From IMG/VR virus record IMGVR_UViG_3300017917_005083, positions 1-39,746 of that record: a stretch of 39,746 bases of DNA; one strand, written 5' to 3'. Source of the stretch: a virus. The position numbers and the translations under genes are program-made. Positions 14,294 to 39,746 of this stretch are shown here, in pieces (positions within the stretch are counted from its first letter, which is position 1; each line of letters starts with the position of its first letter). The notes under the pieces are model-generated. The model made no database searches. It saw nothing but the letters and a program-made list of their open reading frames with translations, and was not told the DNA's origin.

Positions 14294-14843
14294 ACATTAA
14301 AAGTCCTCTCTCGCACCTTTCGCCTTCAATAGATGATTTAGCAAAGTTTACAAAAGAATGATTTCCAAGCAAGTTAACATCAAACATAGATGAGTCATGA
14401 AAAAATATAATACCTTTATTTTTAGTTATTCGTTTATAATTTTCAAAATTACTACTAAAGTTTTTGTGACTTGCATCTTGTATTATTAAATCATATTCAT
14501 CATTTTTGCAAGATGAAATATAACTTTTTTCGTCAGAAGTAACTAACTTTATATTTTTATCAATATTTTTTATAAATTTTGGCATTTCATAATTCCAATC
14601 ACGCCAATTATCAACAAGTGTTAAGTTTCCGACATTATTTATTTTAATTGCTTCTACTAGGGAAGTTGTTACAAATCCTGATCCATAACCTACTTCTAAT
14701 ATATTTTTTGGTTTATGTGATAAAACAGTTGAAAAAATTAATAAATTATGACAAAAATCTACAGAAGAAGAATCAGTTTTGTAAGATGATAAAACTTTTA
14801 TAAAATCAGCTATGTCACAGTAAAATTTTTCTTTATAATTCAT
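14274..14843 (-). CDS. Class I SAM-dependent methyltransferase
   Basis: The 189-residue protein has motif I of SAM methyltransferases (NILEVGYGSGFVTTSLV), an acidic residue after strand 2 (LTLVDNW), and motif post-II (YDLIIQDASH), with FFHDSS after strand 5, as in Methyltransf_24-like enzymes. The substrate may be a sugar in the adjoining island, but protein or small-molecule substrates are possible. It is translationally coupled to the upstream leader-family gene by an ATGA overlap at 14840-14843. Confidence 0.8.
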   Translation of the reverse strand: MNYKEKFYCDIADFIKVLSSYKTDSSSVDFCHNLLIFSTVLSHKPKNILEVGYGSGFVTTSLVEAIKINNVGNLTLVDNWRDWNYEMPKFIKNIDKNIKLVTSDEKSYISSCKNDEYDLIIQDASHKNFSSNFENYKRITKNKGIIFFHDSSMFDVNLLGNHSFVNFAKSSIEGERCERGLLMFINNKF

Positions 14844-15355
14844 CTTTGTATCAAGCCACCGCCATAAGGATTTTTTACACCATGTCCCACAATAGGGGGT
14901 TCTTTAGCTGGTCCCCCTCCATAAACTTTAACTGAAGGTGCTTCTCCTCTACTTGCTCTTTCTATTAAATTATTTAAAACCCTCATCTGATCTGATGCTT
15001 TGTCTTGACGAGCCTCATCTGTAAAAGACCATGCTTCATCTCCATGTCCACCCGTCAAAGTAAAACGATAATAACTAGAACTTGGCCTATCTTTAGAAAT
15101 TGTTAATTTATATCTAAAATCTTTTAGAATTTTACCAAACTCTTTGTTAAGATATCTAAATTCTTCTTTAGCTCCAGTATTAATATTTCTTACTTGAGAA
15201 ACAATTGGACTAGATAATTCAGCAGCACCGGCTTTAGAACTACCACCACCAAAAATAGAATTAAGACCTAAAAGACCAGCAGCAAGCCATGATCTCCATG
15301 ATTCATCATATTGTTCTGGATGGTTTTCTTCAATATATTCAATAAATGTTTTCAT
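14840..15355 (-). CDS. Capsid-targeting-leader family protein
   Basis: The 171-residue product starts with MKTFIEYIEE, the same leader as T4 internal proteins (MKTYQEFIAE), followed by IEE-N, a plausible prohead protease site. A short hydrophobic glycine-rich stretch follows (WLAAGLLGLNSIFGGG, residues 24-39), then a hydrophilic domain (about 60-130) and a Gly/Pro-rich tail. No function is recognised. There is no ribosome site; AATAAATA ends four bases before the ATG. I infer a late protein packaged in the head. Confidence 0.75.
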   Translation of the reverse strand: MKTFIEYIEENHPEQYDESWRSWLAAGLLGLNSIFGGGSSKAGAAELSSPIVSQVRNINTGAKEEFRYLNKEFGKILKDFRYKLTISKDRPSSSYYRFTLTGGHGDEAWSFTDEARQDKASDQMRVLNNLIERASRGEAPSVKVYGGGPAKEPPIVGHGVKNPYGGGLIQR

Positions 15356-15359
15356 ACAT

Positions 15360-15367
15360 TATTTATT
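15360..15367 (-). promoter_or_regulatory. AATAAATA late-type box four bases before ATG
   Basis: On the minus strand this reads CAATAAATAATGTATG, placing the start codon four bases after the box. With T4-like spacing, transcription would begin at or next to the A of the ATG, giving a leaderless mRNA. The same arrangement occurs at 18401, 18432 and 28976. Confidence 0.45.
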
Positions 15368-15431
15368 GCATTTTATGATTTTTTACTAATTATAAATATA
15401 ACGAAACTTTTTAAAGTATAAGTAACAAATA

Positions 15432-15884
15432 TTACTTTTTATTCACAGCTGATTTAAATTCAACTAGACTTATATTTGTACACAGAGGCTTATTATCAAT
15501 CCATACCCAAATCGTTTTCAAAACACCCTTACACATAATTTTTACTTTTTTATCCAAATTTTCATTTCCAGAAAACTTTGCATCAGCCAATATCATTTCT
15601 CTATCATCAAAAAATTCTATAAACAAAATATTTTCATAGGCGGTAAATTTTGTGTCAAGCAAATTTAATTTAACATCTTTGCCAAATTGCCAAGAGCCTC
15701 CACTTGTTGGCATAGTTAAATCTACTATTTCTTTCTTTATATCATCATTCGTTATGTAAAACTTTTCTGCATGAGGTTGTATGCTCCAAATTTTAGTTGC
15801 AATAAAAGCTACCAATGCAAGATTTGAAAGCAACATAGACAACACTCCAAATCTAAACCAACCCAAATTACTGTGACAACCCAT
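15432..15884 (-). CDS. Single-pass membrane protein, unknown
   Basis: The 150-residue protein has one N-terminal transmembrane segment (residues 13-33, GVLSMLLSNLALVAFIATKIW) and a soluble beta-rich domain that would face the periplasm. Two Cys residues lie late in the domain (IMCKGV and PLCTNI). AGAGGTGAG gives a strong ribosome site before the ATG at 15884. It follows thyX on the same strand with 56 bases between. No family recognised. Confidence 0.75.
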   Translation of the reverse strand: MGCHSNLGWFRFGVLSMLLSNLALVAFIATKIWSIQPHAEKFYITNDDIKKEIVDLTMPTSGGSWQFGKDVKLNLLDTKFTAYENILFIEFFDDREMILADAKFSGNENLDKKVKIMCKGVLKTIWVWIDNKPLCTNISLVEFKSAVNKK

Positions 15885-15940
15885 AACTCACCTCTTATCA
15901 TTAAATTAGTAAGAAAAATTAATATTAATATTGCGGTCAG

Positions 15941-16822
15941 TTATACCTGTTCGTTAAAGCCAAGGTCTATAGCTTTTTCTCGCCATTCAGATTGTTCGCG
16001 TTTGTTATCACTAGCAATTTGAGGAATTTTTAGTTGCCAAGCATTTTGATTTATAAAGTCAGATAATGCTTCAACCTCCAAACTTGAAAGTTTAAGAGCA
16101 TCTCTCATGGTGTGATAATCATTCCAAGCCTCAATTGTCCAAGGAACAAGTGGTGAAATAAGTTGTATAATCGCATCTGCATATACCCTTATTTCTTTTT
16201 GGGCATGACTGTCTGATCTTAATGCAAGAAGGTGTAAAAGGTTATGTAAGTCTTGCTTCCAATACCATTCTGTGTATAAATTAAGTGGTAATATCATTCG
16301 TGCTTGTTCCCTAGCTACACCGGCATCAAGCATTTTTAAATATACTGCATAACAATCATAAGCATCTTGTTTTATTTTGTCACAGAACTCTTTTGCGATA
16401 TCTGTATCTAATGGTTCTGTTCCGCCTTGTTTGTTTGTTTTTGATTGTTGCCTTATCTCATCAGGAGATGGAAAATAAAATTCATCTTTCATAACTGAAT
16501 ATCTTCCTGAAATTTCATTCAGACTAGATGATCTATGTCTGATCATTTGTCTTGCAACAAATACAGGCAACTTCATGTGAAATTTAAATACAACACCCTC
16601 AAATGGAGATGTGTGACTGTGCCTCATAAGATAACGAATTAGACCTTTATCTTCATTTATAGATTTAGTTCCATCACCATACGAAACTCTTGCCATCTGA
16701 GCTACAGCGTAATCACAAGTTTGCCCATCTGGAATAATTCTAGGCATAACATCAATTAATTTTACAAAACCTTTATCAAGACAACTAATTTCTTTTGTTG
16801 GCACTAGATCAAAAGCATCCAT
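15941..16822 (-). CDS. thyX: Flavin-dependent thymidylate synthase ThyX
   Basis: The 293-residue protein makes dTMP from dUMP using FAD, NADPH and methylene-tetrahydrofolate. The diagnostic motif RHRSSSLNEISGRY (residues 95-108) matches RHRxxSxNExSxRY. ARMILPLNLYTEWYWKQDLHNLLHLL and the Arg-Ser-Asp-His region that completes the active site follow. The length suits the longer phage and bacterial forms. GGAG lies before the ATG. Together with dCMP deaminase (28312) and the dNMP kinase (19036) it completes a dTTP supply route. A sigma70-like promoter lies just upstream. Confidence 0.96.
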   Translation of the reverse strand: MDAFDLVPTKEISCLDKGFVKLIDVMPRIIPDGQTCDYAVAQMARVSYGDGTKSINEDKGLIRYLMRHSHTSPFEGVVFKFHMKLPVFVARQMIRHRSSSLNEISGRYSVMKDEFYFPSPDEIRQQSKTNKQGGTEPLDTDIAKEFCDKIKQDAYDCYAVYLKMLDAGVAREQARMILPLNLYTEWYWKQDLHNLLHLLALRSDSHAQKEIRVYADAIIQLISPLVPWTIEAWNDYHTMRDALKLSSLEVEALSDFINQNAWQLKIPQIASDNKREQSEWREKAIDLGFNEQV

Positions 16823-16845
16823 CTATTCACTCCAAGTGTTTATTT

Positions 16846-16873
16846 AATCTAGCAAAAATAAAGTTAATGTCAA
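16846..16873 (-). promoter_or_regulatory. Sigma70-like promoter of thyX
   Basis: On the minus strand TTGACA (16868-16873) is followed after 16 bases by TAGATT (16846-16851), ending 23 bases before the thyX ATG. The -35 box is a perfect match. Its first bases overlap the T run of the terminator hairpin just upstream. Confidence 0.55.
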
Positions 16874-16903
16874 AAAAAAAGAGAGGTTTTCAGGAAACCT
16901 CTC
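16872..16903 (-). terminator. Rho-independent terminator (minus strand)
   Basis: GAGAGGTTT and AAACCTCTC (16881-16889 and 16895-16903) form a 9-base stem with a 5-base loop. Read on the minus strand it is followed by nine T (plus-strand A at 16872-16880). It would stop minus-strand transcripts coming from beyond 17420 before the thyX promoter. Confidence 0.75.
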
Positions 16904-17061: not shown

Positions 17062-17090
17062 TTGATTTTATAAAAATTTTCTGCTACTAT
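17062..17090 (+). promoter_or_regulatory. Sigma70-like promoter for the small membrane gene
   Basis: TTGATT (17062-17067) and TACTAT (17085-17090) are separated by 17 bases and lie 36 bases before the GTG start at 17127. Confidence 0.45.
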
Positions 17091-17126
17091 TCTGATGTCC
17101 AATCAATTTCAACAAGGAGACGATTT

Positions 17127-17419: not shown

Positions 17420-17740
17420 CTAAAGAGATATTGTAATAATGCACATATAATCTTTAGAATATTTTTTTAATTCTGCTTTGATTGTCTGTATGGTTCCTGA
17501 AATTTCCCAACCCCACCAATATTCGTTCAGCCCAACTGGTTCATCATCAAAAGGTTTTGATTGTTTTTCTTTTGGCTTTAAAATACTTATTACTGCTTTC
17601 ATGTGAGGAGAATATTCTTCATCTAAAATATCAATTATTTCTTCTACAGTACCTTCAATTTCATCTTGGAAAGGTTTGCCAGAATGATCTTTTTGATGAG
17701 CCATTTCCAATGATTCTAACCATAATTTAAATGTTTTCAT
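17420..17740 (-). CDS. Capsid-targeting-leader family protein
   Basis: The 106-residue product starts MKTFKLWLESLE, the shared leader. The rest is an acidic helical region (EGTVEEIIDILDEEY) and a C-terminal segment with GLNEYWWGWEISG. No family recognised. The start overlaps the stop of the preceding gene by ATGA, and AGAGGCGAT provides a ribosome site. I infer a small virion or internal head protein. Confidence 0.75.
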   Translation of the reverse strand: MKTFKLWLESLEMAHQKDHSGKPFQDEIEGTVEEIIDILDEEYSPHMKAVISILKPKEKQSKPFDDEPVGLNEYWWGWEISGTIQTIKAELKKYSKDYMCIITISL

Positions 17741-17964
17741 GATCGCCTCTTTTTTCTTCTACGATTCTTTTCTCTTTTAGGCAAATAATCAGTATCTAAT
17801 AAATTTTGAACAGGTCCACCCAAACCATGATTTCCCACATCAAAAAACTGTGGGAAATTTCTGGTTACCATTCCACCAATCGGCAAAGAAAAATGAGCAA
17901 CATCGCCGGTTGATGTTCCAACTTCGTCAAGTTGTAACCATTTTTTGAAAAATAATTCGCTCAT
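17737..17964 (-). CDS. Small basic-tailed protein with leader-like N-terminus
   Basis: The 75-residue protein starts MSELFFKKWLQLDEVG, a looser form of the shared leader with LDE-V as a possible protease site, then TSTGDVAHFSLPIGGMVTRNFPQFF and a tail of Arg and Lys residues. I recall similar small proteins (T-S-T-x-x-I/V-A-x-F, then G-M-x-x-R) in large T4-like phages, probably virion-associated; this is from memory. AAAGGAA precedes the ATG. It lies between two other leader-family genes. Confidence 0.7.
   Translation of the reverse strand: MSELFFKKWLQLDEVGTSTGDVAHFSLPIGGMVTRNFPQFFDVGNHGLGGPVQNLLDTDYLPKREKNRRRKKRRS
17830..17858. repeat. 10-base inverted repeat inside a gene
   Basis: ATTTCCCACA (17830-17839) and TGTGGGAAAT (17849-17858) are perfect inverted copies with a 9-base gap, within the coding region of the 75-residue protein. 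The core TCCCACA/TGTGGGA is the same as the stem of the terminator at 17377. There is no T run, so I do not call it a terminator. Confidence 0.6.
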
Positions 17965-17973: not shown

Positions 17974-18396
17974 TTACGCCATTACAGTAGCCTGGGCACC
18001 TGGTTGCGACGAAGTTGAACCTTGTGCAGAATTATTCCAGCCAGCTAATCCTTGAGTAAATATCTTATTCAAGGTATCTTCGTCAATATCTCCATTCAGT
18101 TCAATTTCATTAACTTTTCTACCATCTTTGTATAACATATTTGCTGGATTTTTGTTCACTAATTTAACACGATACATTTTTCCACCTGGTTTTGCATCAA
18201 GACTTATTTCCGCCGAGCCGATTTGATCAATTCCAAATACTGTTTTTGCTATTGCTTGAGCAAATACTGGACTAGATGAATTAATCATTTCTCCACGAAC
18301 AAACCTTGGATCAATATTCAACACACTAGTCAAGGCATCTAAATACGGTGCGTTCTTAGATTCTTCTGCTTCTAAAAATGTTTTAAATGAAATCAT
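17974..18396 (-). CDS. Capsid-targeting-leader family protein
   Basis: The 140-residue product starts MISFKTFLEAEE, the shared leader. The middle (about 25-110) is a mixed alpha/beta region without known motifs, and the C-terminus is low-complexity (Ser/Gln/Ala). No ribosome site is present; AATAAATA ends four bases before the ATG. It begins a three-gene minus-strand run (18396 to 17420) of small virion-type genes, with 9 bases to the next gene. Confidence 0.75.
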   Translation of the reverse strand: MISFKTFLEAEESKNAPYLDALTSVLNIDPRFVRGEMINSSSPVFAQAIAKTVFGIDQIGSAEISLDAKPGGKMYRVKLVNKNPANMLYKDGRKVNEIELNGDIDEDTLNKIFTQGLAGWNNSAQGSTSSQPGAQATVMA

Positions 18397-18400
18397 ATTT

Positions 18401-18408
18401 TATTTATT
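18401..18408 (-). promoter_or_regulatory. AATAAATA late-type box four bases before ATG
   Basis: On the minus strand this reads CAATAAATAAAATATG, with the start codon of the 140-residue leader protein four bases after the box. The spacing equals that at 15360 and 28976. Confidence 0.45.
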
Positions 18409-18431
18409 GTATCAAAGTAAATTTACAAAAG

Positions 18432-18439
18432 CATAAATA
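18432..18439 (+). promoter_or_regulatory. CATAAATA late-type box four bases before ATG
   Basis: The sequence CATAAATACTATATG places a near-consensus T4 late promoter (TATAAATACTAT) with the ATG at 18444 four bases after the box. It faces away from the similar box at 18401, so the two form a divergent late promoter pair. Confidence 0.5.
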
Positions 18440-18443
18440 CTAT

Positions 18444-19043
18444 ATGATAAACAAAAACAGAGAAATTATGTGTTTTGTTTGCAGTGAAATGCAACCAGAT
18501 TTAAATCAAATGCAAATGCATGTTGTTGACAATCATAGAGAAGGTGATGATTATGTTATTTGTCCATGTTGTAAAGTACCTGTAAGAGACTTAATTCCAC
18601 ACTACAGAAGCAAGCACATTGGAATGAAAATACCAGAAAATATACAAGTTAGAGCAATTATTTTAAGAGATGTACACAAAAACAGAAAACATAAGTTCAA
18701 ACAAGGTAGTTATATATCTCAAAAAACAAATCGTACAGTACAATTTAGAAGTGGATTAGAATTAAAACTATATCAAAAATTAGAGAAAAACTTAAATGTT
18801 AGAGATTACAGAGTTGAGAACATAATGATAGAGTATTTTTTTGATGGTAGGTCACACAATTACATACCAGATGTTCTTGTTGAATACACTAATGGAAAAA
18901 TAGAACTTTGGGAGATTAAACCAAAATCACAAACCAAATGGCCTAAGAATATTGCAAAATGGACAGCTGCTAACATTTATTGTAAAAAGCGCAATTGGGA
19001 GTTTATTGTCGTTACTGAAAATGCTCTTAAAAAACCTAAATAG
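18444..19043 (+). CDS. Zinc-finger plus gp4/TnsA-like nuclease
   Basis: The 199-residue protein has two C2H2-like metal sites (Cys10, Cys13, His26, His31 and Cys40, Cys43, His53, His58), then a nuclease domain of the PD-(D/E)xK type: Glu106 in RSGLELKLY, Asp143 in YIPDVLVEY, and Glu157 and Lys159 in LWEIKPK. The domain closely resembles T4 gp4, a head completion protein (RSNWEKFFFEWL, FFIEIKPK), and TnsA-type endonucleases. T4 gp4 has no such fingers. I chose 18444 from the late box; 18468, preceded by AGAGAAA, is an alternative and would leave the first finger intact. Probable role: trimming or sealing the packaged head. Confidence 0.72.
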   Translation: MINKNREIMCFVCSEMQPDLNQMQMHVVDNHREGDDYVICPCCKVPVRDLIPHYRSKHIGMKIPENIQVRAIILRDVHKNRKHKFKQGSYISQKTNRTVQFRSGLELKLYQKLEKNLNVRDYRVENIMIEYFFDGRSHNYIPDVLVEYTNGKIELWEIKPKSQTKWPKNIAKWTAANIYCKKRNWEFIVVTENALKKPK

Positions 19044-23590: not shown

Positions 23591-25876
23591 TCACCCAAGA
23601 AGGTCGTCAATTTCACTTTCGTCATCTTCATTTACATCAACAACATCTCCTTCACAAGTATAGTTTATTGCGTCCATGTGAGGATCTAAATATTTGTGAG
23701 ACTCCTCTTCATTCACGCAATCTATAAGCGATGGGAACTTATGCAAAACTTCTACAGGCACATCATTTCTTTCAGCTGACGATCTAAAAACAAATGGTTC
23801 CTCACCACAAAACTCTGGAACTACTAGAAACTTACCTGCACCTTGAGGTAATATTCTTCCTGCATCAATTAAAGCACCCAATAATCCACCAACAGGATTT
23901 ATTCCTTTGTCAAAATACAATGGAATATTATCAACCTCAACAAATGGCCGATGACTACGATTCTTTTTATTTTGAATCTTAATATTAATTCCTAAAATTT
24001 TCTTCTTTGCATAACCAGAAATTTTAGCTTCAATCTTCTTTTGTGTCTGAGAACGCATTCTAAGACTTGCATAAAATGGTAATCCCTGACCACCAGCTGC
24101 TGTGGTTTCTGGAGAATTGTGTACGACTGCTCCATCAACAACATAAGTGTGATTATCCTCAACTGTTATATCGAATTTAACTTTTGATTTTGTTGGTGGT
24201 TTAATATGAATATTTAATATTTCTGATTCTTGAATACCGTATTTAATAGATGTTTCATCAATATCTTCAATTTCGTAATCAAAACTATTTCTAAAATCTG
24301 GATGAAGTTTATATGACATAGATGGATGCACAAATTTTGAAATTAAAGAATGCAATTTGTAAGTGTTTTCTGAATCAAACACAAGACCTTTATCTGTAAG
24401 TTTTGATGTCAGATCAAATTTTTTCTTTAAAGCATTTTGTATTTTTTGTCTGTTAGAAAATTTCATACAACATATTGCTGATTTGCCTTTACCCCATTTA
24501 GCATAACTCCCCGCAAATGTGCCATCATCCTGATACCATATTGCCAAACCAAGAACATCCAAATTATTTATAACTTCATCTGGAATTATGCAATCTTTGC
24601 AAGACACACCTTTTTGTCTTGGTGAATTCCTAAATTTCAATCCGTTCAATTCACACATTGGAATTGTATCAAATCCAACACGCCTTTCTTCTGAATACGA
24701 ATATCCAATCCAAGGATTTAGTATAGATTCTTTCCAACGACAATATTCTGTTTGCTTAATTCCGTGATTAATCCGCAAATGATTGCAGGAATGATTTTTT
24801 CTCAAAGATCCATCACCTAAAATAGAACCATAAACAATTTGTTTTTGGCTCTCTGTCAAATATTTAGGTTGTATTTGAACCAATTTGTCTCCTAATTTCA
24901 ATTCTCCAGCTGGTTTTTCAACAATATTTCCATTTTCATAAACAAAAAGCATATGGTTGGAAGTACAACCAAATTGTGTCACACCATTGCCCCATGTTTT
25001 TCTTGCTGTGAATTGTAGAAAATGCTCACCCTTCTTCAAATTACCATTTTTGTGCCAAGCTACAACTTTCTTGGCTTCAATTTTTCCATTTTTTGGATTA
25101 TAGGATAAAACTTTTACAGGAAGTTTTTGGTTTACAATTTTACCAATCTTCATGGTTGTTCCATCTTCAAGCATAACTCTACTTGTATAATGGAAACAGC
25201 CATACATAACGCCAATCTTATCTCTAATTTGATTCAGAATTACAACTGTAACATCATTCTGTTCCATCTCTGTGTTTAACTTACGCAATTCTTTTGAACA
25301 AATCTTGGCTCGTTCTCCAGGTTGTTCATTGGCTCCTACAATTCGCTTAAAATCAGCTTTTGTATATCCCTCTGGCAATTGCGTCTCTCTCAACTCTCTA
25401 GCACTCGGAGAAACTGAAATTGAATCGTATAAGATTACAACAGGCACAGTAAGTTTCTTTTTCTCTCGCACATATTCAATAATTCTGTACATGGTTCCAA
25501 AACAATCTTCAAGAGTAACTGGTGTATATCTTATAATTTTATTAATATCGCATTTTGTTGCATTTTGAATAAATTCACCATTGATAGCATTTTCAGTATC
25601 AAGAATTACTCCTATGCCCCCTAATTTTTGAACTCCTGCTAATATGTTCATTCCAATCAAACTTTTGCTTGACGCGCTGGGTCCATAAATTTCAGTAAGT
25701 CTGCCACCTGGAATTCCACCAGTAGCAAATTTTCCACTACAACAATAGTTTATTGCTAAGTTTCCAGTATCTATAAAATATTTTGCAACATCAAGTTCAG
25801 CGACTACCTTGGCACCCGTATCTGATGCCATTTGTGAGAAAATATCGTCAACTGAGTCTTTCTTTGGTCTTGCCAT
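23591..25876 (-). CDS. uvsX: UvsX/RecA-like recombinase interrupted by an intein
   Basis: The 761-residue precursor would splice to a 400-residue recombinase. The first 226 residues hold the RecA/UvsX ATPase core, with Walker A GPSASSKS (65-72; T4 UvsX has the similar GPSKSFKS), VILYDSISVSPS as Walker B and LNQIRDKIGVMYG. The C-terminal 174 residues resume with SPETTAAGGQGLPFYAS, the L2 DNA-binding loop of RecA, and end in an acidic tail (DEDDESEIDD-like), as in gp32-interacting recombinases. The ATG at 25876 is preceded by AAAGGATT; an upstream TTG is less likely. It forms presynaptic filaments for recombination-driven replication. Confidence 0.95.
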   Translation of the reverse strand: MARPKKDSVDDIFSQMASDTGAKVVAELDVAKYFIDTGNLAINYCCSGKFATGGIPGGRLTEIYGPSASSKSLIGMNILAGVQKLGGIGVILDTENAINGEFIQNATKCDINKIIRYTPVTLEDCFGTMYRIIEYVREKKKLTVPVVILYDSISVSPSARELRETQLPEGYTKADFKRIVGANEQPGERAKICSKELRKLNTEMEQNDVTVVILNQIRDKIGVMYGCFHYTSRVMLEDGTTMKIGKIVNQKLPVKVLSYNPKNGKIEAKKVVAWHKNGNLKKGEHFLQFTARKTWGNGVTQFGCTSNHMLFVYENGNIVEKPAGELKLGDKLVQIQPKYLTESQKQIVYGSILGDGSLRKNHSCNHLRINHGIKQTEYCRWKESILNPWIGYSYSEERRVGFDTIPMCELNGLKFRNSPRQKGVSCKDCIIPDEVINNLDVLGLAIWYQDDGTFAGSYAKWGKGKSAICCMKFSNRQKIQNALKKKFDLTSKLTDKGLVFDSENTYKLHSLISKFVHPSMSYKLHPDFRNSFDYEIEDIDETSIKYGIQESEILNIHIKPPTKSKVKFDITVEDNHTYVVDGAVVHNSPETTAAGGQGLPFYASLRMRSQTQKKIEAKISGYAKKKILGINIKIQNKKNRSHRPFVEVDNIPLYFDKGINPVGGLLGALIDAGRILPQGAGKFLVVPEFCGEEPFVFRSSAERNDVPVEVLHKFPSLIDCVNEEESHKYLDPHMDAINYTCEGDVVDVNEDDESEIDDLLG
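24116..25198 (-). other. Intein with LAGLIDADG endonuclease in UvsX
   Basis: The 361-residue insertion starts with Cys (CFHYTSRVMLEDGT, block A) and ends VVHN before Ser, the standard His-Asn/Ser splice junction. Block B is TSNHMLFV, and block F ITVEDNHTYVVDG precedes the end. Two LAGLIDADG helices are visible, VYGSILGDGS and LAIWYQDDGT, each with an acidic residue where the catalytic one sits, so the homing endonuclease may be active. The insertion falls inside the L2 loop between MYG and SPETT, so splicing is required for UvsX function. Confidence 0.95.
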
Positions 25877-25910
25877 CTTACAATCCTTTGAGAACAAGAT
25901 ACCCAAAAAT

Positions 25911-28975: not shown

Positions 28976-28983
28976 AATAAATA
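28976..28983 (+). promoter_or_regulatory. AATAAATA late-type box four bases before ATG
   Basis: The sequence CAATAAATAAATTATG puts the start codon of the leader-family gene at 28988 four bases after the box, the same spacing as at 15360 and 18401. No ribosome site is present. Confidence 0.45.
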
Positions 28984-28987
28984 AATT

Positions 28988-29605
28988 ATGCATACATTTT
29001 CAGAATTTGTCTTTATCAGAGAAAATAGTCTGAATGAAATATATGTTAGTGGTAAGTCTGAACCTAGAAAAAGTTTTGACTTAACATCTGTGGGTCATAC
29101 TGCTCATAGAATACTTTCAAGAATAAAAAGTAAATTTTTTGATGATCTAAATAGAATTGCTGAAGATGAAAGCCTACAAAAAGCATACAAGTGGATACAA
29201 AATGTTGATATGCTATTTGGCCTGGAGAAAATGTTAAGACTTGTCGGACCTACATTTTCAGCAAAGATATTAGTACTTAAATCTATATATGAATTTTCCA
29301 AGAATCCAACCAAACTTGAGAATTTAACTATTCTAAAAAATAATATGACAGAACTTGCAAAACTTATAGCAATAAATCCTTTATATTCAGTTCCATTAAT
29401 TCATACAGCTTTATCATCTGTTGGCATACACGGATGGGAAAACTTAATGCTGGTAAGTCTAGCTAAAATACCATCACTATTATTTTTGTACATTCTTCCA
29501 ATTTGCAAATATCTTATGCAAACTGAAAACAAAGCAATTAAAAAAATTGCTTCTAATATCAAAAAAAGCATTGATGTAATAGAACCAAAAAGTATTTCAC
29601 ATTAA
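28988..29605 (+). CDS. Capsid-targeting-leader family protein, hydrophobic
   Basis: The 205-residue product starts MHTFSEFVFIRE, the shared leader with IRE-N as a possible protease site. The rest is helical; residues about 140-170 are strongly hydrophobic (GWENLMLVSLAKIPSLLFLY), so it may insert into a membrane. It is a lone plus-strand gene within the minus-strand replication block, with its own late box, which fits separate late expression. Its stop shares TTAA with the opposite gene. No function recognised. Confidence 0.75.
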   Translation: MHTFSEFVFIRENSLNEIYVSGKSEPRKSFDLTSVGHTAHRILSRIKSKFFDDLNRIAEDESLQKAYKWIQNVDMLFGLEKMLRLVGPTFSAKILVLKSIYEFSKNPTKLENLTILKNNMTELAKLIAINPLYSVPLIHTALSSVGIHGWENLMLVSLAKIPSLLFLYILPICKYLMQTENKAIKKIASNIKKSIDVIEPKSISH

Positions 29606-31645: not shown

Positions 31646-32203
31646 TCACTCAAACAGAAAATCATGTTCAGAAAGCGAAACTTGACCAACACGAATCGCT
31701 TTTTCCTTGGTTATCTTTTTACCAAGAAATCGGCTTGCGTTCCAGATGATTTTTTTGGCATAAATTTTGAATTTTGTATTTACCAAGATATGTCTCGATT
31801 TGAGAGGGATTTCATCTTCTGGAATGAATTTCTTAGCTAAACTTTCTAGTATCTCCTCTTGATCTTCGCCAAATTTCCTTTTATATGCACCGTGATGTGT
31901 TTTCTTACTCCATAAATACTGAAGACTTTTGTTTACATTATGCCAGATAATAGCATCTTCAGGAATGTACTTATTCAGCAATTCAAATACTGATTCGATC
32001 CAAGTTTGTCGCTTGTAATATGACCCAGCACGAATAACAGAAAGTAATAATTCCTGCTTGAAATCATCAATTTCATGTTGGTGATTGTTCTTGCAGTTAT
32101 TTTGCATCAATTGCCAAGACACGAAATAACAAAGCTGACTAAATTCCTTTTCTAAAACTTCGTACTCATCGGAAGATATAGCAAATTCTCTGAATGGGTT
32201 CAT
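31646..32203 (-). CDS. Possible sigma-factor-like protein
   Basis: The 185-residue protein has EFSQLCYFVSWQLMQNN, then HEIDDFKQELLLSVIRAGSYY, a pattern like sigma70 region 2.1-2.2 (DDLxQExxLAxxxAxxxY). Similar short proteins in T4-like phages are annotated as sigma-like or late sigma (gp55) proteins. The rest is helical and basic. The call is tentative: region 2.4 and region 4 are not clear. AGGAGG gives a strong ribosome site, and a promoter with perfect TTGACA lies upstream. A late sigma factor would explain the TATAAATA-type boxes seen in this window. Confidence 0.5.
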   Translation of the reverse strand: MNPFREFAISSDEYEVLEKEFSQLCYFVSWQLMQNNCKNNHQHEIDDFKQELLLSVIRAGSYYKRQTWIESVFELLNKYIPEDAIIWHNVNKSLQYLWSKKTHHGAYKRKFGEDQEEILESLAKKFIPEDEIPLKSRHILVNTKFKIYAKKIIWNASRFLGKKITKEKAIRVGQVSLSEHDFLFE

Positions 32204-34116: not shown

Positions 34117-34815
34117 ATGATTCCAAAAGTTTACACAGCTTCATTTCAGGCAATTGAAAAATATTGCAAAGATGACACAATTAGATTTTTATATGAGTTG
34201 TGTATATTTTTTATGAATTGCGAGTTTTTTTACTTTCCACATATTACACATACAAAATTTAATGCAGCTAAAAATCCAACAAAACAATTTCTGTATAAAA
34301 ATATTAAAAAAATGTTTGAAAAATATAAAGATAAAATCAGCAGTCAAGAATTTGTAGGATTTATAAAAGCACAATTTGAAATATTTAAACTTAACGAACA
34401 ACACAGTCCATTAATAGGACCACATATATTACATTCTAAAGCTTCAGAATATAGATATATCATTTGGTTAAGATTGGTAGCTGAAAAACAAATCATGGAA
34501 AAAGATAATAAAGTGGAGGTTACAAACAAGTATATCGACTGTTCTATGAAATTAACAAAATTTAACATTGATAAAATTTTTGGTCCGACATTAACCTTTG
34601 AGGATTATAAGAAAAATATAAGAAAAATTCTGCTTATGGTAAAAGCACATCAGTTATGTATTTTTTATTGTTACTGTAGCAGATGGATTAAAAAATTGCC
34701 TCAAGAAATTTTGGAAGAAATACAAAAATATCATAATTTTGGAGCTTTAGAAAAATGTGATTACATAAAAATACAAAATTCATACGATAAATTTTTTGAA
34801 TATGAGAAAAATTAA
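34117..34815 (+). CDS. Helical protein, unknown
   Basis: The 232-residue protein is helical, Lys- and aromatic-rich, with Cys residues clustered near the C-terminal third (HQLCIFYCYCSRW). No leader and no known motif. It is the only gene reading away from the hairpin region, transcribed opposite to the polymerase. Its stop shares TTAA with the next gene on the other strand. Confidence 0.65.
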   Translation: MIPKVYTASFQAIEKYCKDDTIRFLYELCIFFMNCEFFYFPHITHTKFNAAKNPTKQFLYKNIKKMFEKYKDKISSQEFVGFIKAQFEIFKLNEQHSPLIGPHILHSKASEYRYIIWLRLVAEKQIMEKDNKVEVTNKYIDCSMKLTKFNIDKIFGPTLTFEDYKKNIRKILLMVKAHQLCIFYCYCSRWIKKLPQEILEEIQKYHNFGALEKCDYIKIQNSYDKFFEYEKN

Positions 34816-35624
34816 TATGTTAAGAATATTTTTTCTAAAATTGTAATTATCTCTTCAGGATCTTGATATGGACTAAAGTATTCATCCCATTCAGGCGGGG
34901 AAGGTCTATATTCGTAACCCATATTTGTTGATGAGTGTTCTGCTCCCCATGAATGTATTAAACCTGTTGATGGATTGAAACTTAAATAAACATTAAACTG
35001 ATTTACTTTTTTATGATCAGGGGCTTCTAAACCAAAACCTTTATAACTGAAATAAATGATATAATTATTGTCATCAGTTTTTATAACTCCATCAAAGTTC
35101 ATTACTTGAGGATGTTTAAGTTTCATATTTGATGCGACTTTTATTACAAGATTTTGCAGATTGTCATAATTTTTTTGTGGAGATTCAAGATTTGTTTCAT
35201 CAATAAATTTAAGAATATCATATGCTCTGTTTGCAAGAAGTTTTTCTACAGCTACATCTTGTGCAGTTAAGTGTTCATAATCATTTATTACAGGAACTGC
35301 ATATCTTGTAATCCAAACAAAATTTCCCTCTAGGTCAGTTGTAAGTCTTCTAATACTAATTCTACATGATCCCAAAGGAGAAAATTCAACTTCCAATGAA
35401 CCAACTGATGTGTTATCTCCATATCTTACAACGCTACCTATGCCTCTTTTTGGTTCTCTTTTCCCTATTTTGCCCAATGCTATAAGTTCATCAAGACAAG
35501 TTTCAATTTGTAATGATTCAATTGGATGTTCTTCATATGACAAGGCAACAACACTTGTCTTATTTGGATTTTCATATCCAAAAAGTTTTTCAGGTGATTT
35601 TCCTATCCATTCAAAGAATTTCAT
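34812..35624 (-). CDS. Leader-family protein with large C-terminal domain
   Basis: The 270-residue product starts MKFFEWIGKSPEKLFG, a variant of the shared leader, followed by an N-terminal segment (30-130) that looks like a helix-turn-helix plus beta-rich domain (ESLQIETCLDELIALGKIG, then SVVRYGDN) and a second alpha/beta domain (140-270) with KGFGLEAPDHKKVNQFNVYL. Function unknown. It is the second gene of a minus-strand pair, 17 bases after the gene at 35642. Confidence 0.7.
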   Translation of the reverse strand: MKFFEWIGKSPEKLFGYENPNKTSVVALSYEEHPIESLQIETCLDELIALGKIGKREPKRGIGSVVRYGDNTSVGSLEVEFSPLGSCRISIRRLTTDLEGNFVWITRYAVPVINDYEHLTAQDVAVEKLLANRAYDILKFIDETNLESPQKNYDNLQNLVIKVASNMKLKHPQVMNFDGVIKTDDNNYIIYFSYKGFGLEAPDHKKVNQFNVYLSFNPSTGLIHSWGAEHSSTNMGYEYRPSPPEWDEYFSPYQDPEEIITILEKIFLTY

Positions 35625-35641: not shown

Positions 35642-36079
35642 TCAAGCTGCTCTTCGTGTTAGCCAATTTGCCCAAGAAGTAGAAGATAATTTTGGTTTTG
35701 GCTTTGGCTTTGGTTTATTACTAGATGGTGATATTTCTACTTTTGTACCTTTGTCTGCAAAAAATTGATTTTTCTGCATATGAACTAATCTTCCTAAATT
35801 TTTGCCTAGACTCGACATTTTTGTTTTCATAGATTGAAACATTCTATTTATCGAAGCCTTTTGATTGTCTGGTAATGTTTGTGTATTTTTCATTATTTCT
35901 GGTATAAGTTTGTTAAATTTTATAATTAAATTATCATAAGTCTCGTCATCTATGTTTTCAGGTTGATTTATAACTGAAGTGTAAAATGTTTTAGTTTTTC
36001 CCAATAAATCCAAGCCGCCTGTTCTATCAATTTGATAATAGTCTTCTTTTAATTCTAACCACTCAGCAAATGTTTTCAT
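35642..36079 (-). CDS. Capsid-targeting-leader family protein
   Basis: The 145-residue product starts MKTFAEWLELKE, the clearest copy of the shared leader, with LKE-D as a possible prohead protease site. A helical region (40-110) follows, then KPKPKPKP and a short Trp-containing tail. GGTGAAAT is a modest ribosome site. It is divergent from another leader-family gene at 36122, 42 bases away. Confidence 0.75.
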   Translation of the reverse strand: MKTFAEWLELKEDYYQIDRTGGLDLLGKTKTFYTSVINQPENIDDETYDNLIIKFNKLIPEIMKNTQTLPDNQKASINRMFQSMKTKMSSLGKNLGRLVHMQKNQFFADKGTKVEISPSSNKPKPKPKPKLSSTSWANWLTRRAA

Positions 36080-36109: not shown

Positions 36110-36116
36110 TTAAATA
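36110..36116 (+). promoter_or_regulatory. TTAAATA late-type box five bases before ATG
   Basis: TATTAAATAACTTTATG places a degenerate late box five bases before the ATG at 36122, close to the spacing of the four clearer examples. There is no ribosome site. Confidence 0.3.
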
Positions 36117-36121: not shown

Positions 36122-36415
36122 ATGAAATCATTTAAAAATTTTCTAGAACAAAAAACAGAATCTAAATCTGAGGAAAATCAAAAAGCCTTTTTAAATCAAC
36201 TTGGATTACCAGGTTTTGATATTGGAGAAGGAATGCAAATAAAAATGAGTTCTTTTGAAGCATCTAAACTTGATGACATTAAAAAACGTATTTTGCCTTG
36301 GACAAAATTTCAAGCAATAGAGGATCAAACAACAAAAAAAGACATTTTGAGTATGATATACAATCCTAAAACATCTTTAAATGACATATACAAAATAATT
36401 TATAATGTATCATAA
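36122..36415 (+). CDS. Capsid-targeting-leader family protein
   Basis: The 97-residue product starts MKSFKNFLEQ, the shared leader, and later has FDIGEGMQ, where IGE-G fits the prohead protease consensus and echoes the VGEG sites of the first genes. The remainder is short and helical. The 3' end overlaps the uvsW-like gene by 16 bases. Function unknown. Confidence 0.72.
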   Translation: MKSFKNFLEQKTESKSEENQKAFLNQLGLPGFDIGEGMQIKMSSFEASKLDDIKKRILPWTKFQAIEDQTTKKDILSMIYNPKTSLNDIYKIIYNVS

Positions 36416-37824
36416 TCTTTAATCTCTATTTTGTGTCCTTCTTTTTCTAAAATCTTAATTCTTTTCTTTGAATGTTTTTTCAGATATGGATTATTTTCAA
36501 AAAGGAAATCAATGTAGAGGACTTCATCTTTATCGTCAGCAGTTCTTAATCCTCTTCCCATTCTCTGTATAATAAGATGATCTGCTTGACCTCCAGCAGC
36601 ATTAATTAAGCTATGTATTCTTACATTAATTCCTGTATTGAAAATTTGTTGAGTAGCTATAGCAAAACAACTATGCTTAGAATTTTGCAACATATCTACA
36701 ACTTGTTTTCTTGTTTCATTAGTATCCTGGCCAGTAATCCAATATGCGTGTGGAATGAGTTTTTTAAGATTGTCTCCATGCGCTACTCTATCAACCAGAA
36801 TAAGAGTTCTACCACTTAGTCCAGAACAAATATCAAAAACCTTCTTGTGAAAAATATCATTGTTTACGATTCCTTTATCAATAGTATCCATGTAAAGTTC
36901 GTTTTGTAAGTTTGGTTCATTAATCTTGTGAAAAACACAAGTTGATTTACTTAACTTTCCAATCTTTTGCAAGTCGGCAGTTTTAATTAAACCAGTTTCA
37001 GTAGTTGTAGTTTTGAACAGAGGGCCAAAAAAACCTTTTACCAAGAATTTATGTACCTTATCAGTTTCGCCATGTTTGAATGGTGTCGCACTTAAACCTA
37101 TTCTAACACTTGCATTAACAAGTTTTTTATAAATATTTTTTGATTGTAATGAAACCATATCGTGAACTTCATCTACAATTAAAACTTGTATATGCCTAAG
37201 ACTATCGCCTAAATGGTCTGCACTTTGGACAGTAGCTACAGTAATGTCATTGGGATCGCAAGCATTTCCCCAAAGTGTTCCTACATTGTCGATTTTCCAT
37301 CGCAAGAGTTCTCCATGATTTTGTATAGCCAAATCTTTTTTATTTTGAAGAACCAAAATTTTAACACCAGGAGTTATGCATTTAATTATACTTGCTAATA
37401 TAAAGCTTTTACCAGCTCCAGTAGGCGCATGAACTATTCCTCTTTTGTATTTTAATGCTTGGTTTACTAAATCAACTTGATAATCAGTTAGTTCAATATT
37501 ACTTTCTGGCATAAATGTCTGAACAAAGTTTTTATCAATTTCTGTTCTTAATAATTCAGGATGAGCATATTTTACTTCTAATTTTGGAATTTCTTCATAT
37601 TTTTTTATAACACTAAGAACTTCAGGTAATAGTCCAGTTAAGAATTTGCCTGTTTTATCACTAAAAAATTTAACAAACCCATCCCATTTTTTTGACCTGT
37701 ACAGAGGATGAAAGTGATAACCCTTTTGACGAAATTTTAAATTATCCGCAAGAAATGTAATCAAATTTTTATTGTCAGAAACAATTTGAGAATAGTCTGA
37801 ATTTATAATGAGTTTAGTTGTCAT
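36400..37824 (-). CDS. uvsW: UvsW-like SF2 helicase
   Basis: The 474-residue protein has an N-terminal domain like that of UvsW (FRQKGYHFHPLYRSKKWDGF), then motif I APTGAGKS (Lys139), motif II DEVH (218-221), motif III SATP, motif V-like NTGINVR and motif VI QRMGRGLR. T4 UvsW, of similar size, unwinds R-loops and branched DNA and promotes the switch to recombination-dependent replication. The ATG starts directly after the stop of the dda-like gene with no gap, so the two are translated together. Confidence 0.92.
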   Translation of the reverse strand: MTTKLIINSDYSQIVSDNKNLITFLADNLKFRQKGYHFHPLYRSKKWDGFVKFFSDKTGKFLTGLLPEVLSVIKKYEEIPKLEVKYAHPELLRTEIDKNFVQTFMPESNIELTDYQVDLVNQALKYKRGIVHAPTGAGKSFILASIIKCITPGVKILVLQNKKDLAIQNHGELLRWKIDNVGTLWGNACDPNDITVATVQSADHLGDSLRHIQVLIVDEVHDMVSLQSKNIYKKLVNASVRIGLSATPFKHGETDKVHKFLVKGFFGPLFKTTTTETGLIKTADLQKIGKLSKSTCVFHKINEPNLQNELYMDTIDKGIVNNDIFHKKVFDICSGLSGRTLILVDRVAHGDNLKKLIPHAYWITGQDTNETRKQVVDMLQNSKHSCFAIATQQIFNTGINVRIHSLINAAGGQADHLIIQRMGRGLRTADDKDEVLYIDFLFENNPYLKKHSKKRIKILEKEGHKIEIKDYDTL

Positions 37825-38895
37825 TCATCTGTACCATAGAATTTTTGATTCTGCCCTACTCGCTGCGGTGTAGTTCCATCTATTGTTATCCCAATATCTA
37901 CATGGTTCTTCAATAACAGCAATAGATTCAAATTGATCACCCTGAGCCTTGTGACAAGTGATAGCGTAAGCAAAATCAAGCACAACATACTCCCTCATTT
38001 GATTTAGTATTTCTTGATCAATTTTTTCTTGATTAAAAAGATCTTTATTATAAGGCAAATTATTTAATTGTCCTTTTTCAAACTTTATACTTACAGAGTT
38101 ATTGCTGATGTTTGTAATGACACCTTGTTGGCCATTAAAAACACCAAACAACTTATTGTTTTTAAGAACAATAACTTTATCACCAGTAACAGGTTCTGGA
38201 GGTAATTTTAAATACTGTCTGATTCTTTGATTTAATGCAAGTCTAGTTTTATTAAATCCACAAATTACTTGATTTACTGTAACAAGGTCATTCATAGAAA
38301 TTGTTTTCTTAGAAAGTATTGTAATTTGATCATTTTCTGTAACGAATGTGTTTGCAGGTAAATTGTTTCTTAGATGATTTGCGAATTGTGCTATCTGACC
38401 TGCATTTCTATGAATTGTTTCAAGTCTATATTGAGGATTTTGCATTAAATTAAATGAATCACCAACAGGAGGTAATTGTCCATGATCACCAACATACAAA
38501 ATAGGTTTTCCAAAGTAATCAATATCATTAGCAATTTCTCGACTAATCATGCTAGATTCATCAACAATAAAACCATCATAATCGACACAATCTTGATTTT
38601 TCAGTGAATATGTTATAGAATTATTGTCAAAATTTACATCATAAATTGTGCTATGTATTGTTTGAGCTTTTGATAAACCTTTTCTTTTTAGTACATTCGT
38701 TGCTTTACCTGTATATGCACAAATAGCAAAATTTGGAAATCTAGAACTGATTTTTTTTATTATCGAAGTCTTTCCAGTGCCAGCAAAGCCACCTAGAGTA
38801 ATCTTAGTGGGAGAGGATGCTTTTGTTGCAGAATTTAATTCATCACAAATTTTGTTTATGATTTGATTTTGTTCATCCGTGTACACAATTTTCAT
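37825..38895 (-). CDS. dda: Dda/RecD2-like SF1 helicase
   Basis: The 356-residue protein has Walker A GGFAGTGKTS (Lys42), motif II VDESSMI, motif III GDHGQLPPV, and C-terminal TCHKAQGDQF and YTAASRAE, as in Dda and RecD2, 5'-3' helicases that help start replication and displace proteins. It is a little shorter than T4 Dda. The ATG at 38895 (MKIVYTDEQ) has GGAGG seven bases upstream; a longer open frame crosses the promoter and is rejected. Confidence 0.93.
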   Translation of the reverse strand: MKIVYTDEQNQIINKICDELNSATKASSPTKITLGGFAGTGKTSIIKKISSRFPNFAICAYTGKATNVLKRKGLSKAQTIHSTIYDVNFDNNSITYSLKNQDCVDYDGFIVDESSMISREIANDIDYFGKPILYVGDHGQLPPVGDSFNLMQNPQYRLETIHRNAGQIAQFANHLRNNLPANTFVTENDQITILSKKTISMNDLVTVNQVICGFNKTRLALNQRIRQYLKLPPEPVTGDKVIVLKNNKLFGVFNGQQGVITNISNNSVSIKFEKGQLNNLPYNKDLFNQEKIDQEILNQMREYVVLDFAYAITCHKAQGDQFESIAVIEEPCRYWDNNRWNYTAASRAESKILWYR

Positions 38896-38914
38896 CTTGT
38901 TTCCTCCATAAAAA

Positions 38915-38943
38915 ATTATAAATAAAAAAAACGACAATTGCAA
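38915..38943 (-). promoter_or_regulatory. Sigma70-like promoter of dda-uvsW operon
   Basis: On the minus strand TTGCAA (38938-38943) and a perfect TATAAT (38915-38920) are 17 bases apart, 20 bases before the dda ATG. The -10 box shares its bases with a TATAAATA on the other strand. Confidence 0.6.
38917..38924 (+). promoter_or_regulatory. TATAAATA late-promoter-like box
   Basis: A perfect T4-type late box on the plus strand, 71 bases before the small gene at 38995. It overlaps the -10 box of the opposite dda promoter, so late initiation would compete with the early one. Confidence 0.45.
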
Positions 38944-38994
38944 TACTAAATAATGAGGCGAATTTGAATCCCTAATAACTGGAGGGTGTGCATT

Positions 38995-39162
38995 ATGGAT
39001 GCCTCTATATTGAATAACACCTTTGATCGTGTAGTAGATACTGAAAAGCATTTAGATCAGCTTCAAAAAAGACAAACATATCTAGATGGGTTATTAGATA
39101 AGTTGTTAGGAACAAACAAAGATAGTAATGATAAAATTATAAAAGAAAAAATAAAAAATTAA
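38995..39162 (+). CDS. Small helical protein (55 residues)
   Basis: A 55-codon gene with a strong ribosome site (GGAGGG at 38981, nine bases before the ATG). The product (MDASILNNTFDRVVDTEKHL) is a single charged helix. Its stop shares TTAA (39159-39162) with the stop of the opposite gene, an arrangement seen three more times in this window, which supports it being real. Function unknown. Confidence 0.65.
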   Translation: MDASILNNTFDRVVDTEKHLDQLQKRQTYLDGLLDKLLGTNKDSNDKIIKEKIKN

Positions 39163-39590
39163 CTTCTTTTCTTAATATTACAGTAGAACAAATAACTATC
39201 TTTACCACCTGGAGTAAGGGCTTTAGCATTTTGTCTATAATCTATAACTAATTTCGTTTTCTCTGTTTCATACAAAGCTAAATCTTTCAATCTTGATAAA
39301 ATTGTTGCTATAAACTCTTTAGATCCAGTTATTCTGAGTCCATCTTCTTGAATTGTTGAGCCTTTGTGCTGTGCATCAATTGGGTTGACTCTAAGTGGAA
39401 TGTTTGGGCTTAATGAATTCCAAAATGCAAGTGAATCTTTCTTGGTAGCCTTCCAAGGTTTCATTTTTCTCTGAGTAAAAGACATAGGTGTAGGTGCAGC
39501 AGATGTAATCTCAGGTTGCTCCGGTTCGTATTCTGCTTCTGCTGGCGACATTTCAACCTGTTCGCGCATATAATCAGCAAATCTTTTCAT
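39159..39590 (-). CDS. Capsid-targeting-leader family protein
   Basis: The 143-residue product starts MKRFADYMREQVEMS, the shared leader, followed by an acidic Pro/Glu-rich linker and an alpha/beta domain (55-143) with IPLRVNPIDAQHKG and a C-terminal KKRS. No ribosome site is evident. It is divergent from another leader-family gene at 39609. Function unknown. Confidence 0.72.
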   Translation of the reverse strand: MKRFADYMREQVEMSPAEAEYEPEQPEITSAAPTPMSFTQRKMKPWKATKKDSLAFWNSLSPNIPLRVNPIDAQHKGSTIQEDGLRITGSKEFIATILSRLKDLALYETEKTKLVIDYRQNAKALTPGGKDSYLFYCNIKKRS

Positions 39591-39608
39591 CTTATACTAT
39601 ATACTAAT

Positions 39609-39746
39609 ATGATAACAATTTATGAATTTCAAAAGAAAAATGACTTGTTAACAGAAGCAGATGCACCAGCAGCACCAGGCGCAGCACCAGCAGCACCAGC
39701 ACCAACAGGAGGAGATATAGGTGGATTAGGTGGCGGGGATTTAGGA
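39609..39746 (+). CDS. Leader-family protein, cut by window end
   Basis: Only the first 46 codons are seen. The product starts MITIYEFQKKNDLLTEAD; LTE-A exactly matches the T4 gp21 prohead protease pattern (L-x-E, then Ala), then a low-complexity Ala/Pro and Gly/Asp-rich stretch follows. No ribosome site; TATATACT lies just before the ATG. The divergent start 19 bases away belongs to a leader-family gene. Confidence 0.7.
   Translation, partial: MITIYEFQKKNDLLTEADAPAAPGAAPAAPAPTGGDIGGLGGGDLG

Follow-up and report, generated by a model that had tools for sequence, protein, structure and literature searches.

The 39,746-base window analyzed here, a whole linear IMG/VR fragment (IMGVR_UViG_3300017917_005083; 30% G+C), encodes ten proteins for which an initial annotation had proposed a common N-terminal leader akin to the capsid targeting sequence (CTS) of the T4 internal proteins. 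All ten are present at the starts given there (each gene is named below by its start position and strand), and seven pass an independent leader profile at its threshold of 9: 15355(-) (14840..15355; 171 amino acids (aa), MKTFIEYIEENHPEQYDE..., followed by a glycine-rich hydrophobic stretch), 17740(-) (17420..17740; 106 aa, MKTFKLWLESLE...), 18396(-) (17974..18396; 140 aa, MISFKTFLEAEE...), 28988(+) (28988..29605; 205 aa, MHTFSEFVFIRENSLNE...), 36079(-) (35642..36079; 145 aa, MKTFAEWLELKEDYY...), 36122(+) (36122..36415; 97 aa, MKSFKNFLEQKTE...), and 39590(-) (39159..39590; 143 aa, MKRFADYMREQVE..., with the leader, a variable linker, and a conserved basic domain). The three looser members are 35624(-) (34812..35624; 270 aa, a short leader variant, MKFFEWIGKSPE...; score -12.6), 17964(-) (17737..17964; 75 aa, a variant leader, MSELFFKKWLQLDEVGTST...; score 1.6), and 39609(+) (39609..39746; a variant leader, MITIYEFQKKNDLLTEADAPAAPG..., on a Pro/Gly/Ala-rich protein cut by the window end; score 0.3).

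Six of the ten genes have a late-promoter-like box close to the AUG. A TAAATA box begins at -10 in 15355(-) (15360..15365, minus strand), 18396(-) (18401..18406, minus strand), and 28988(+) (28978..28983, plus strand), and at -11 in 36122(+) (36111..36116, plus strand). The divergent genes 39590(-) and 39609(+), with 18 bp between their AUGs, have in common a TATATA palindrome (39598..39603). No box accompanies 17964(-) and 17740(-), the second and third genes of a row headed by 18396(-), or 35624(-). Because the former two lie closely behind 18396(-) and the latter behind 36079(-), transcription as downstream genes is conceivable for all three, but 36079(-) lacks a box near its own AUG.

The window represents a fragment from a huge phage of the T4 type and is collinear with a portion of LR756511.1, an unannotated record of 595,163 bases labeled 'uncultured phage'. 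Its replication genes (a UvsX-like protein with an intein-like insert, a gp32-like single-stranded DNA-binding protein (SSB), a DnaB-like helicase, UvsW-like and Dda-like helicases, and a DNA polymerase match) match that record, and 18 window open reading frames (ORFs) align with a single 41-kb stretch of it at 25-48% identity. Direct searches with single window proteins (polymerase, SSB) found no IMG/VR relatives, and megablast of 24 kb of the window against phages gave no match; relatives were gathered by tblastn to LR756511.1 and two-sequence alignments of shared proteins. Whole-record leader counts cover 12 contigs (the window, LR756511.1, G001-G005, G009, G018, G020, G026, and G027); G012 and G013, which have no match to the S77 protease family, stand outside them. 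G002 is a close relative of the window, with 79% identity in one compared family. A further 93 IMG/VR loci (80 + 13; L018-L110), some in contigs of 220-511 kb, were added by two-sequence alignments; the last ten of the 13 are distant helicase matches only, and the set overlaps in part with the 12 contigs and includes near-copies. Genes are longest-ORF calls, not annotation.

The window families differ in how far they extend. Orthologues of 28988(+) with the leader occur in G001, G002, and L018; 15355(-) has leader-bearing homologues in G001 (27159+) and in L039/L040; and the 18396(-) family is found in 6 contigs, collected among leader matches. No homologue of 17740(-), 17964(-), 18396(-), or 36079(-) was found in loci L018-L110, where 35624(-) has 57 matches, 36122(+) 39, and 39609(+) 11. 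The widespread 36122(+) family keeps an aromatic pair of the leader in 21/21 aligned members, and the 39590(-) family (10 contigs) keeps the leader and the basic domain and not the proline/alanine-rich linker between them. The looser members, whose own scores fall short, are tied to the set through their relatives: 17964(-) is 68% identical over 59 residues to the G004 protein 75989+, which scores 11.8; 35624(-) has leader-bearing orthologues in LR756511.1, G027, and G020; and the orthologues of 39609(+) in six relatives have variant leaders below threshold in the same divergent arrangement. The structural model of 35624(-) (mean predicted local distance difference test (pLDDT) score 84.5) has a confident alpha/beta body and a low-confidence N-terminus; at an E cut-off of 0.001, its fold search returned nothing from PDB and four BFVD entries, all of them uncharacterised proteins whose TM-scores do not exceed 0.26. 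For 39590(-), the model has low confidence (mean pLDDT 56.5) and includes a helix at residues 4-13. The bodies of nine window proteins (39609(+) not included) match no known family: none exceeds the Pfam cut-off, the best Pfam E value being 0.0053 and the best PHROG value 0.0015.

The leader extends well beyond the window. In the 12 contigs, 93/9,500 near-start ATGs match the strict pattern M-x-[TS]-[FWY]-x-x-[FWY]-[LIMVCF], compared with 3/9,340 internal ATGs. The corresponding counts are 7/107 and 0/132 in the window (18387(+), discussed later, is among the seven, and 39590(-) is not a strict match), and 48/5,007 and 1/6,424 in L018-L110. The profile was built from 102 non-redundant leaders (141 before near-copies were removed), whose consensus is M-K-[TS]-F-K-E-[FYW]-[LIV]-E-E-K-E, with information ending at about residue 13; K2, E6, E9, E10, and E12 are at positions that the seed pattern had left free. 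In the 12 contigs, the threshold of 9 is reached at 159/14,950 near-start codons, compared with 4/13,690 internal codons. A profile search of the genome and its relatives, as the initial annotation had recommended, thus yields 156 leader genes: 7 in the window, 34 in LR756511.1, 8 in G001, 6 in G002, 8 in G003, 11 in G004, 8 in G005, 18 in G009, 10 in G018, 23 in G020, 5 in G026, and 18 in G027. Single linkage sorts them into 101 families (78 with a single member) and unites some doubtful members. The claims that the bodies are unrelated and that the set is bigger and more dispersed than that of T4 hold up well, the 34 genes of LR756511.1 being spread over 595 kb. Another 57 genes combine the box with a leader variant that in many cases is a residue shorter (M-x-F-x-x-[FWY]). 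The looser pattern is also matched by 251 of 5,249 box-less first-ATG ORFs, so chance will account for some of the 57. Among them, LR 30486+ conforms to the strict pattern and had escaped detection through an upstream-distance limit.

Conservation of the leader is also seen in three families defined by whole-protein similarity. Within the first 30 residues, 33/36, 21/21, and 8/10 members have an aromatic pair at a spacing of three with a hydrophobic or small residue directly behind it, and three later stretches give 0-4. When no condition is set on the next residue, the counts are 35/36, 21/21, and 10/10 in the first 30 residues, 5, 10, and 0 in residues 41-70, and 5, 4, and 0 in residues 71-100. 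In short and extended leader variants, the pair is displaced by at least one position.

The profile, trained on this clade alone with T4 not included, was applied to 100 kb of T4 (two 50-kb stretches within 60-160 kb), 100 kb of P-SSM2 (two 50-kb stretches), and 50 kb each of Escherichia coli and SPO1. Among the 498 near-start candidates of T4, the internal protein genes ipI (11.6), ipII (7.6), and ipIII (5.7) rank first to third, and the next scores 3.5. In P-SSM2, 1/444 passes (PSSM2_115, at 20.5), and the adjoining gene is annotated as a virion structural protein. None of the 403 E. coli or 263 SPO1 candidates reaches 9 (best 1.8 and 4.3). A chance or common N-terminal pattern would draw on the fact that short motifs recur, as the 4/13,690 internal codons that pass illustrate; it is refuted by the contrast between near-start and internal codons, the lack of any match at threshold in the 50-kb stretches of E. 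coli and SPO1, and the conservation within orthologous families, and its probability is next to nil.

The leader is linked to the box. In the box, residue-rate, and body-ratio counts, leader proteins of <60 aa and near-copies were dropped. A TA[AT]ATA box beginning 10-17 bases before the AUG is found in 55/90 leader genes versus 251/2,958 others, and three other A/T hexamers are each found there in 0/90 leader genes. When genes are grouped by the box alone, the aromatic motif occurs in 131/318 box genes and 189/3,227 others (Fisher p 1.5e-62), and among the first ATGs of all ORFs in 124/320 with and 251/5,249 without the box. The box peaks at -11/-10 from the AUG. The T4 late promoter TATAAATA lies at -13 to -6 from the start site (PMC1524935), so that a box beginning at -11 places the predicted start site on the AUG. 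An identical peak is seen in genes without the leader, and the layout is therefore a general style of part of the genes, not one peculiar to leader genes; of six Gp23 genes, none has a box adjoining the AUG. A gp55-type sigma factor (phrog_234; E 3.6e-6 to 2.9e-11) is present in 9/12 clade records and was not found in the window, G001, or G026. The divergent arrangement of 39590(-) and 39609(+) recurs in G002, G003, G004, G005, and G026 (18 bp) and in G001 (20 bp); it is missing in LR756511.1, G009, and G018, which, like the window and those six, belong to the ten contigs where the 39590(-) family occurs. In all, eight divergent pairs were found with a gap within 80 bp, one member scoring >9, and its partner >3; the 39590-type pair of G026 is among them.

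The placement of the box, such that the AUG would be the 5' end of the message, and a lean of the K2, T3, and E9 codons to A-ending forms could also mean that the conserved start is an RNA-level element for translating leaderless mRNAs, not a protein signal. The codons speak against this: T3 uses all four ACN codons, L8 uses six leucine codons, and F4 is encoded by 44 TTT and 22 TTC. Moreover, 68/156 leader genes have no box and 187/318 box genes have no motif, and we regard an RNA-level role as highly improbable.

A capsid protein of the gp23 type and a candidate processing enzyme are encoded by some of the relatives. LR756511.1 has two S77 protease matches and one Gp23, with a 310-aa gene between gp21 and gp23. 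Among 30 contigs, S77 was found in 5 (G002, G009, G018, G020, and G027, all with Gp23) and Gp23 in 9 (8 over cut-off), and a hydrophobic-N-E site close to where the likely propeptide ends is retained in six of six Gp23 proteins. The T4 protease gp21 cuts after L/I-x-E, and in the T4 CTS residues 4 and 7 are needed for targeting and 8 and 10 for processing (PMC9026906). In the leaders, position 8 is L (40%), I (19%), V (15%), or M (12%), and E stands at residue 9 or 10 in 61/102. [LI]xE is present within residues 7-20 in 43/102 leaders versus 24.5 +/- 3.8 in shuffles that keep residues 7 and 8 plus composition. At residues 7-16, [LIMFV]xE occurs at 82.7 per thousand in leader proteins versus 23.0 in other N-termini, and [LIMF]xD and [LIMF]xK are depleted. 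The tripeptides IEE, LKE, IRE, LDE, and LTE are located in the window proteins as initially described. Two further features of LR756511.1 are worth recording: the second S77-protease-type gene (242621-242989, minus strand; E 3.5e-9) lies away from the head-gene block, and a portal-like protein with an apparent intein insert (531014-533587, minus strand; by eye) adjoins the gp21-gp22-gp23 block.

The bodies include known enzymes. Pfam and PHROGs were scanned with 74 representatives (90 aa or longer and not truncated by a piece boundary) of the 101 families, and at most 19/74 have a Pfam match at 0.01. The clear ones are NADAR (2.3e-19), poly(A) polymerase head/tRNA nucleotidyltransferase (2.2e-25), cREC (2.4e-13), and DUF5661 (4.8e-11). 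None of the 74 matches a replication family, and the sole tail-type match (tape-measure, 2e-4) is weak; this PHROG match and one to a head protease (3.3e-4) were not assigned to members. Ten of the 57 variant-leader proteins, picked by eye, gave clear matches to HAD of the RNA-repair type (1.6e-15), AAA_33 kinases (5e-15 and 3.3e-11), and a C39 peptidase (5e-14), and a weak one, below the Pfam cut-off, for the PARP-like G027 69605- (1.8e-4); four of the ten have no match at 0.01. Three proteins that looked like ADP-ribosyltransferases by eye are not claimed as such: G004 16068+ and G027 250726- have no Pfam match at 0.01 and G027 43191- none at 0.1, and none has a named PHROG. HExxH-type motifs were seen by eye in LR 303354+ and 269324-, with a weak metallo-protease match (8.9e-4) for 303354+ only. 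A leader protein of G005 (18063-18833; similar in G020, G004, and G027) has glycine-rich hydrophobic stretches followed by Q-rich sequence with long GQQQ-type repeats (by eye).

Paralogues illustrate how the leader is distributed. Of the three NADAR copies of LR756511.1, only one carries the leader and the box, and 1,045 bases containing one ORF separate it from gene 23; the two leaderless copies have Shine-Dalgarno-like stretches. The G027 NADAR homologue begins where the LR756511.1 leader ends (aligned by eye), and its start, MPTFTTF, faintly resembles the pattern and scores 4.9. A phosphoribosyltransferase gene (2.9e-7) follows the leader-bearing NADAR gene and, when read from a GTG with a Shine-Dalgarno-like stretch, has a leader-like start. 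For cREC, the leader is on 1/4 copies. The long form of tRNA nucleotidyltransferase has the leader in LR756511.1, G009, and G020; the G008 copy scores 8.6, two G012 copies resemble short variants and fail the profile, and the short forms of G009 and G013 have no leader.

These bodies bear on what the leader addresses. A short amphipathic helix could bind many partners, and several window leader genes sit among replication genes, so that docking to another phage partner (the replisome, the late transcription complex, or the membrane), unrelated to the head, might be considered. It is improbable: the three T4 internal proteins are ranked on top by the profile, hydrophobic-x-Glu sites are enriched near the helix, and the replication and tail-type counts among the 74 representatives are as given above. 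Alternatively, the leader may dock to the prohead core with most of its bearers being factors for assembly or the core that undergo degradation or exit the head, and few or none injected. The T4 core proteins gp67 and gp68 are indeed cut to pieces (PMC9026906), several leader proteins are of low complexity, and the 35624(-) and 36122(+) families, with their 57 and 39 matches in L018-L110, are widespread rather than variable, so that not all leader proteins need be variable cargo. We consider this unlikely, while giving it real weight, in view of the enzyme domains expected to be active in a cell: NADAR, tRNA nucleotidyltransferase, and cREC among the leader proteins and the RNA-repair-type HAD, kinases, and C39 peptidase among the variant-leader proteins.

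We favor the reading of the leader as a T4-type CTS in a clade of T4-type huge phages, with a repertoire far beyond that of T4, and assign this reading a probability of roughly 0.8. It draws on the top three ranks of ipI-ipIII, the co-occurrence of S77 and Gp23 in relatives, the late-type box together with the gp55-type sigma factor, and the NADAR contrast. Several observations weigh against it. Conservation of positions 3, 4, 7, and 8 is circular because these positions picked the seeds, and only ipI among the T4 internal proteins passes the threshold. No S77 match was found in 25/30 contigs, including records of 381 and 430 kb, and the window, a fragment, has no S77, Gp23, or gp55-type match. 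The box is absent from the 68 leader genes counted above, and the motif is still rather frequent (17/83) where the box lies 16 bases further upstream. Glu is commoner at residue 9 (45/102) than at 10 (25/102), and the site is therefore not simply that of T4. Ex[LI] is raised beside the leader too (19.8 vs 11.8 per thousand), so that the [LI]xE signal is partly plain acidity, and alanine is not preferred after the putative cut (5/56). In the bodies of 71 leader families the ratio of [LI]xE to Ex[LI] is 0.68, against 0.985 +/- 0.12 in 2,000 length-matched draws of other proteins (0.2% as low). Read as avoidance of the cut site, this is weak evidence, because [LI]xE in the bodies equals within-protein shuffles (64 vs 63.4), E is rarer there (5.1 vs 6.6%), and [LI]xD is low too (72 vs 93 Dx[LI]). 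The exact site of the proposed gp21-type cleavage after (I/L)-x-E is not settled by the E at residue 9 or 10 in 61/102 leaders, by the [LI]xE in 43/102, or by the residue after the putative cut.

Here, we propose how a leader of the CTS type would operate. The leader genes would be read late. In over half of them, a TATAAATA-like box would set the start site on or next to the AUG, giving an mRNA almost without a 5' leader, and the remaining genes would possibly be read as downstream genes. The first ~12 residues would form a short helix with the aromatic pair at positions 4 and 7 (one earlier in the short variant), which may dock the protein to the core of the prohead. The next step would be a cut by the S77 prohead protease after the nearby hydrophobic-x-Glu, and the mature body would remain alongside the DNA inside the head, with injection likely for some bodies. 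Dozens of unrelated proteins with one address tag suggest a large helper kit delivered with the DNA, and the enzyme set would fit early RNA repair and the removal of ADP-ribose marks or signals. A bolder form of this proposal, to which we give slightly less than even chances, is that a single tag marks out a regulon comprising some 20-50 proteins in each genome, expressed late from largely leaderless messages and partly bidirectional TATATA promoters, packed, and injected as a first-strike RNA-repair/ADP-ribose kit, the tag and promoter forming a cassette that can be placed before any gene.

If the leader is a CTS, the head content of uncultured huge phages would be largely readable from sequence: a dozen residues, with a promoter box as an aid, would tell the cargo among many genes of no known function and show which paralogues (NADAR, cREC, tRNA nucleotidyltransferase) enter with the DNA. 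This would give a testable list of early counter-defence and takeover proteins, would broaden the T4 CTS into a general packaging code reaching beyond the three internal proteins, and may offer new tags for loading proteins into phage heads.

Other features of the window touch the leader set or the clade. A possible further member (5160..6428, plus strand), which lies outside the range initially described, resembles the leader at residues 13-24 (KRDFLKFLEEKR) and continues with a glycine-rich stretch; it scores 11.4 at a non-start codon, and homologues in G001, G003, G004, and G005 align from residues 1-7 onward. Another leader-like stretch, IRTFKNFIVNEEKSN (score 14.6), lies at the ATC codon 1624 inside the 1004-aa ORF 667-3681 (plus strand) and is one of 25 internal matches of at least 12 in 599,341 positions. 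This ORF, neither half of which has a tblastn match in the 11 other contigs at 1e-3, is perhaps a fused or decayed leader gene. Gene 18387-19043 (plus strand) is nuclease/head-closure-like (phrog_218, 4.5e-24), and its called start overlaps the start of the opposite-strand 18396(-). As a leader gene it is probably false (score 4.8; conserved only from residue 22), and its start is probably miscalled because the LR756511.1 match begins at residue 22. The UvsX-like recombinase (23591-25906, minus strand) carries a LAGLIDADG-type insert resembling an intein. A three-gene block at 6462-8480 (plus strand), which includes a papain-like peptidase (by eye), is kept in LR756511.1 (480926-482975; 40%, 46%, and 33% identity). 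The 185-aa protein at 31646-32203 (minus strand) has 82 IMG/VR matches and is present in 12/12 clade records, eight of them gathered through it; it has no match in PHROG, PDB, or T4/P-SSM2 and is a possible clade marker. Its assignment as a late sigma factor is not supported, as it gave no meaningful match to P-SSM2 gp55 and no PDB sequence match, and its profile had no T4 or P-SSM2 match; the gp55-type gene of 9/12 records lies elsewhere.

CTS leaders, late promoters, and packaged effectors are already known. In the open-licence PMC literature accessible to us, no leader repertoire this large in huge phages, no link of the leader to a start-on-AUG box, and no paired promoters of this kind were found, and the available portion of the report on the 'moraphages', another large-phage lineage, mentions none of these (PMC12619734). 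The set described here resembles the T4 internal proteins in having an N-terminal leader of 10-19 residues on unrelated bodies, with aromatics at 4 and 7, a hydrophobic residue at 8, Glu at 9-10, an S77 protease, and a gp23-type capsid. It differs in the more frequent Glu at 9 and in number, with up to 34 leader genes per record versus three internal proteins in T4. Over half of the leader genes have the late-type box, whereas T4 ipI, ipII, and ipIII have Shine-Dalgarno-like stretches. Unlike the T4 internal proteins, the bodies include known enzyme domains, and the clade has two leader families with a wide distribution. T4 Alt, a packaged and injected ADP-ribosyltransferase, has a short N-terminal propeptide cut at ITE-6 (PMC5694885), and a PARP-like protein with a variant leader, its match below the Pfam cut-off, is present in G027. 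In phiKZ and SPN3US, many head-targeted proteins are cut by a gp21-related protease after a short Glu-ending motif (PMC5694885, PMC9026906); several of their propeptides exceed 100 residues, and according to the same source only that of gp45 (20 residues) is of CTS length (PMC5694885). NADAR, ART, Macro, and Nudix proteins have been proposed to be packaged in the virions of contractile-tailed phages (PMC9503650). As far as the accessible text of that report goes, the proposal rests on gene neighbourhood and fusions, whereas in the present clade the leader marks the NADAR copy that would be packaged.

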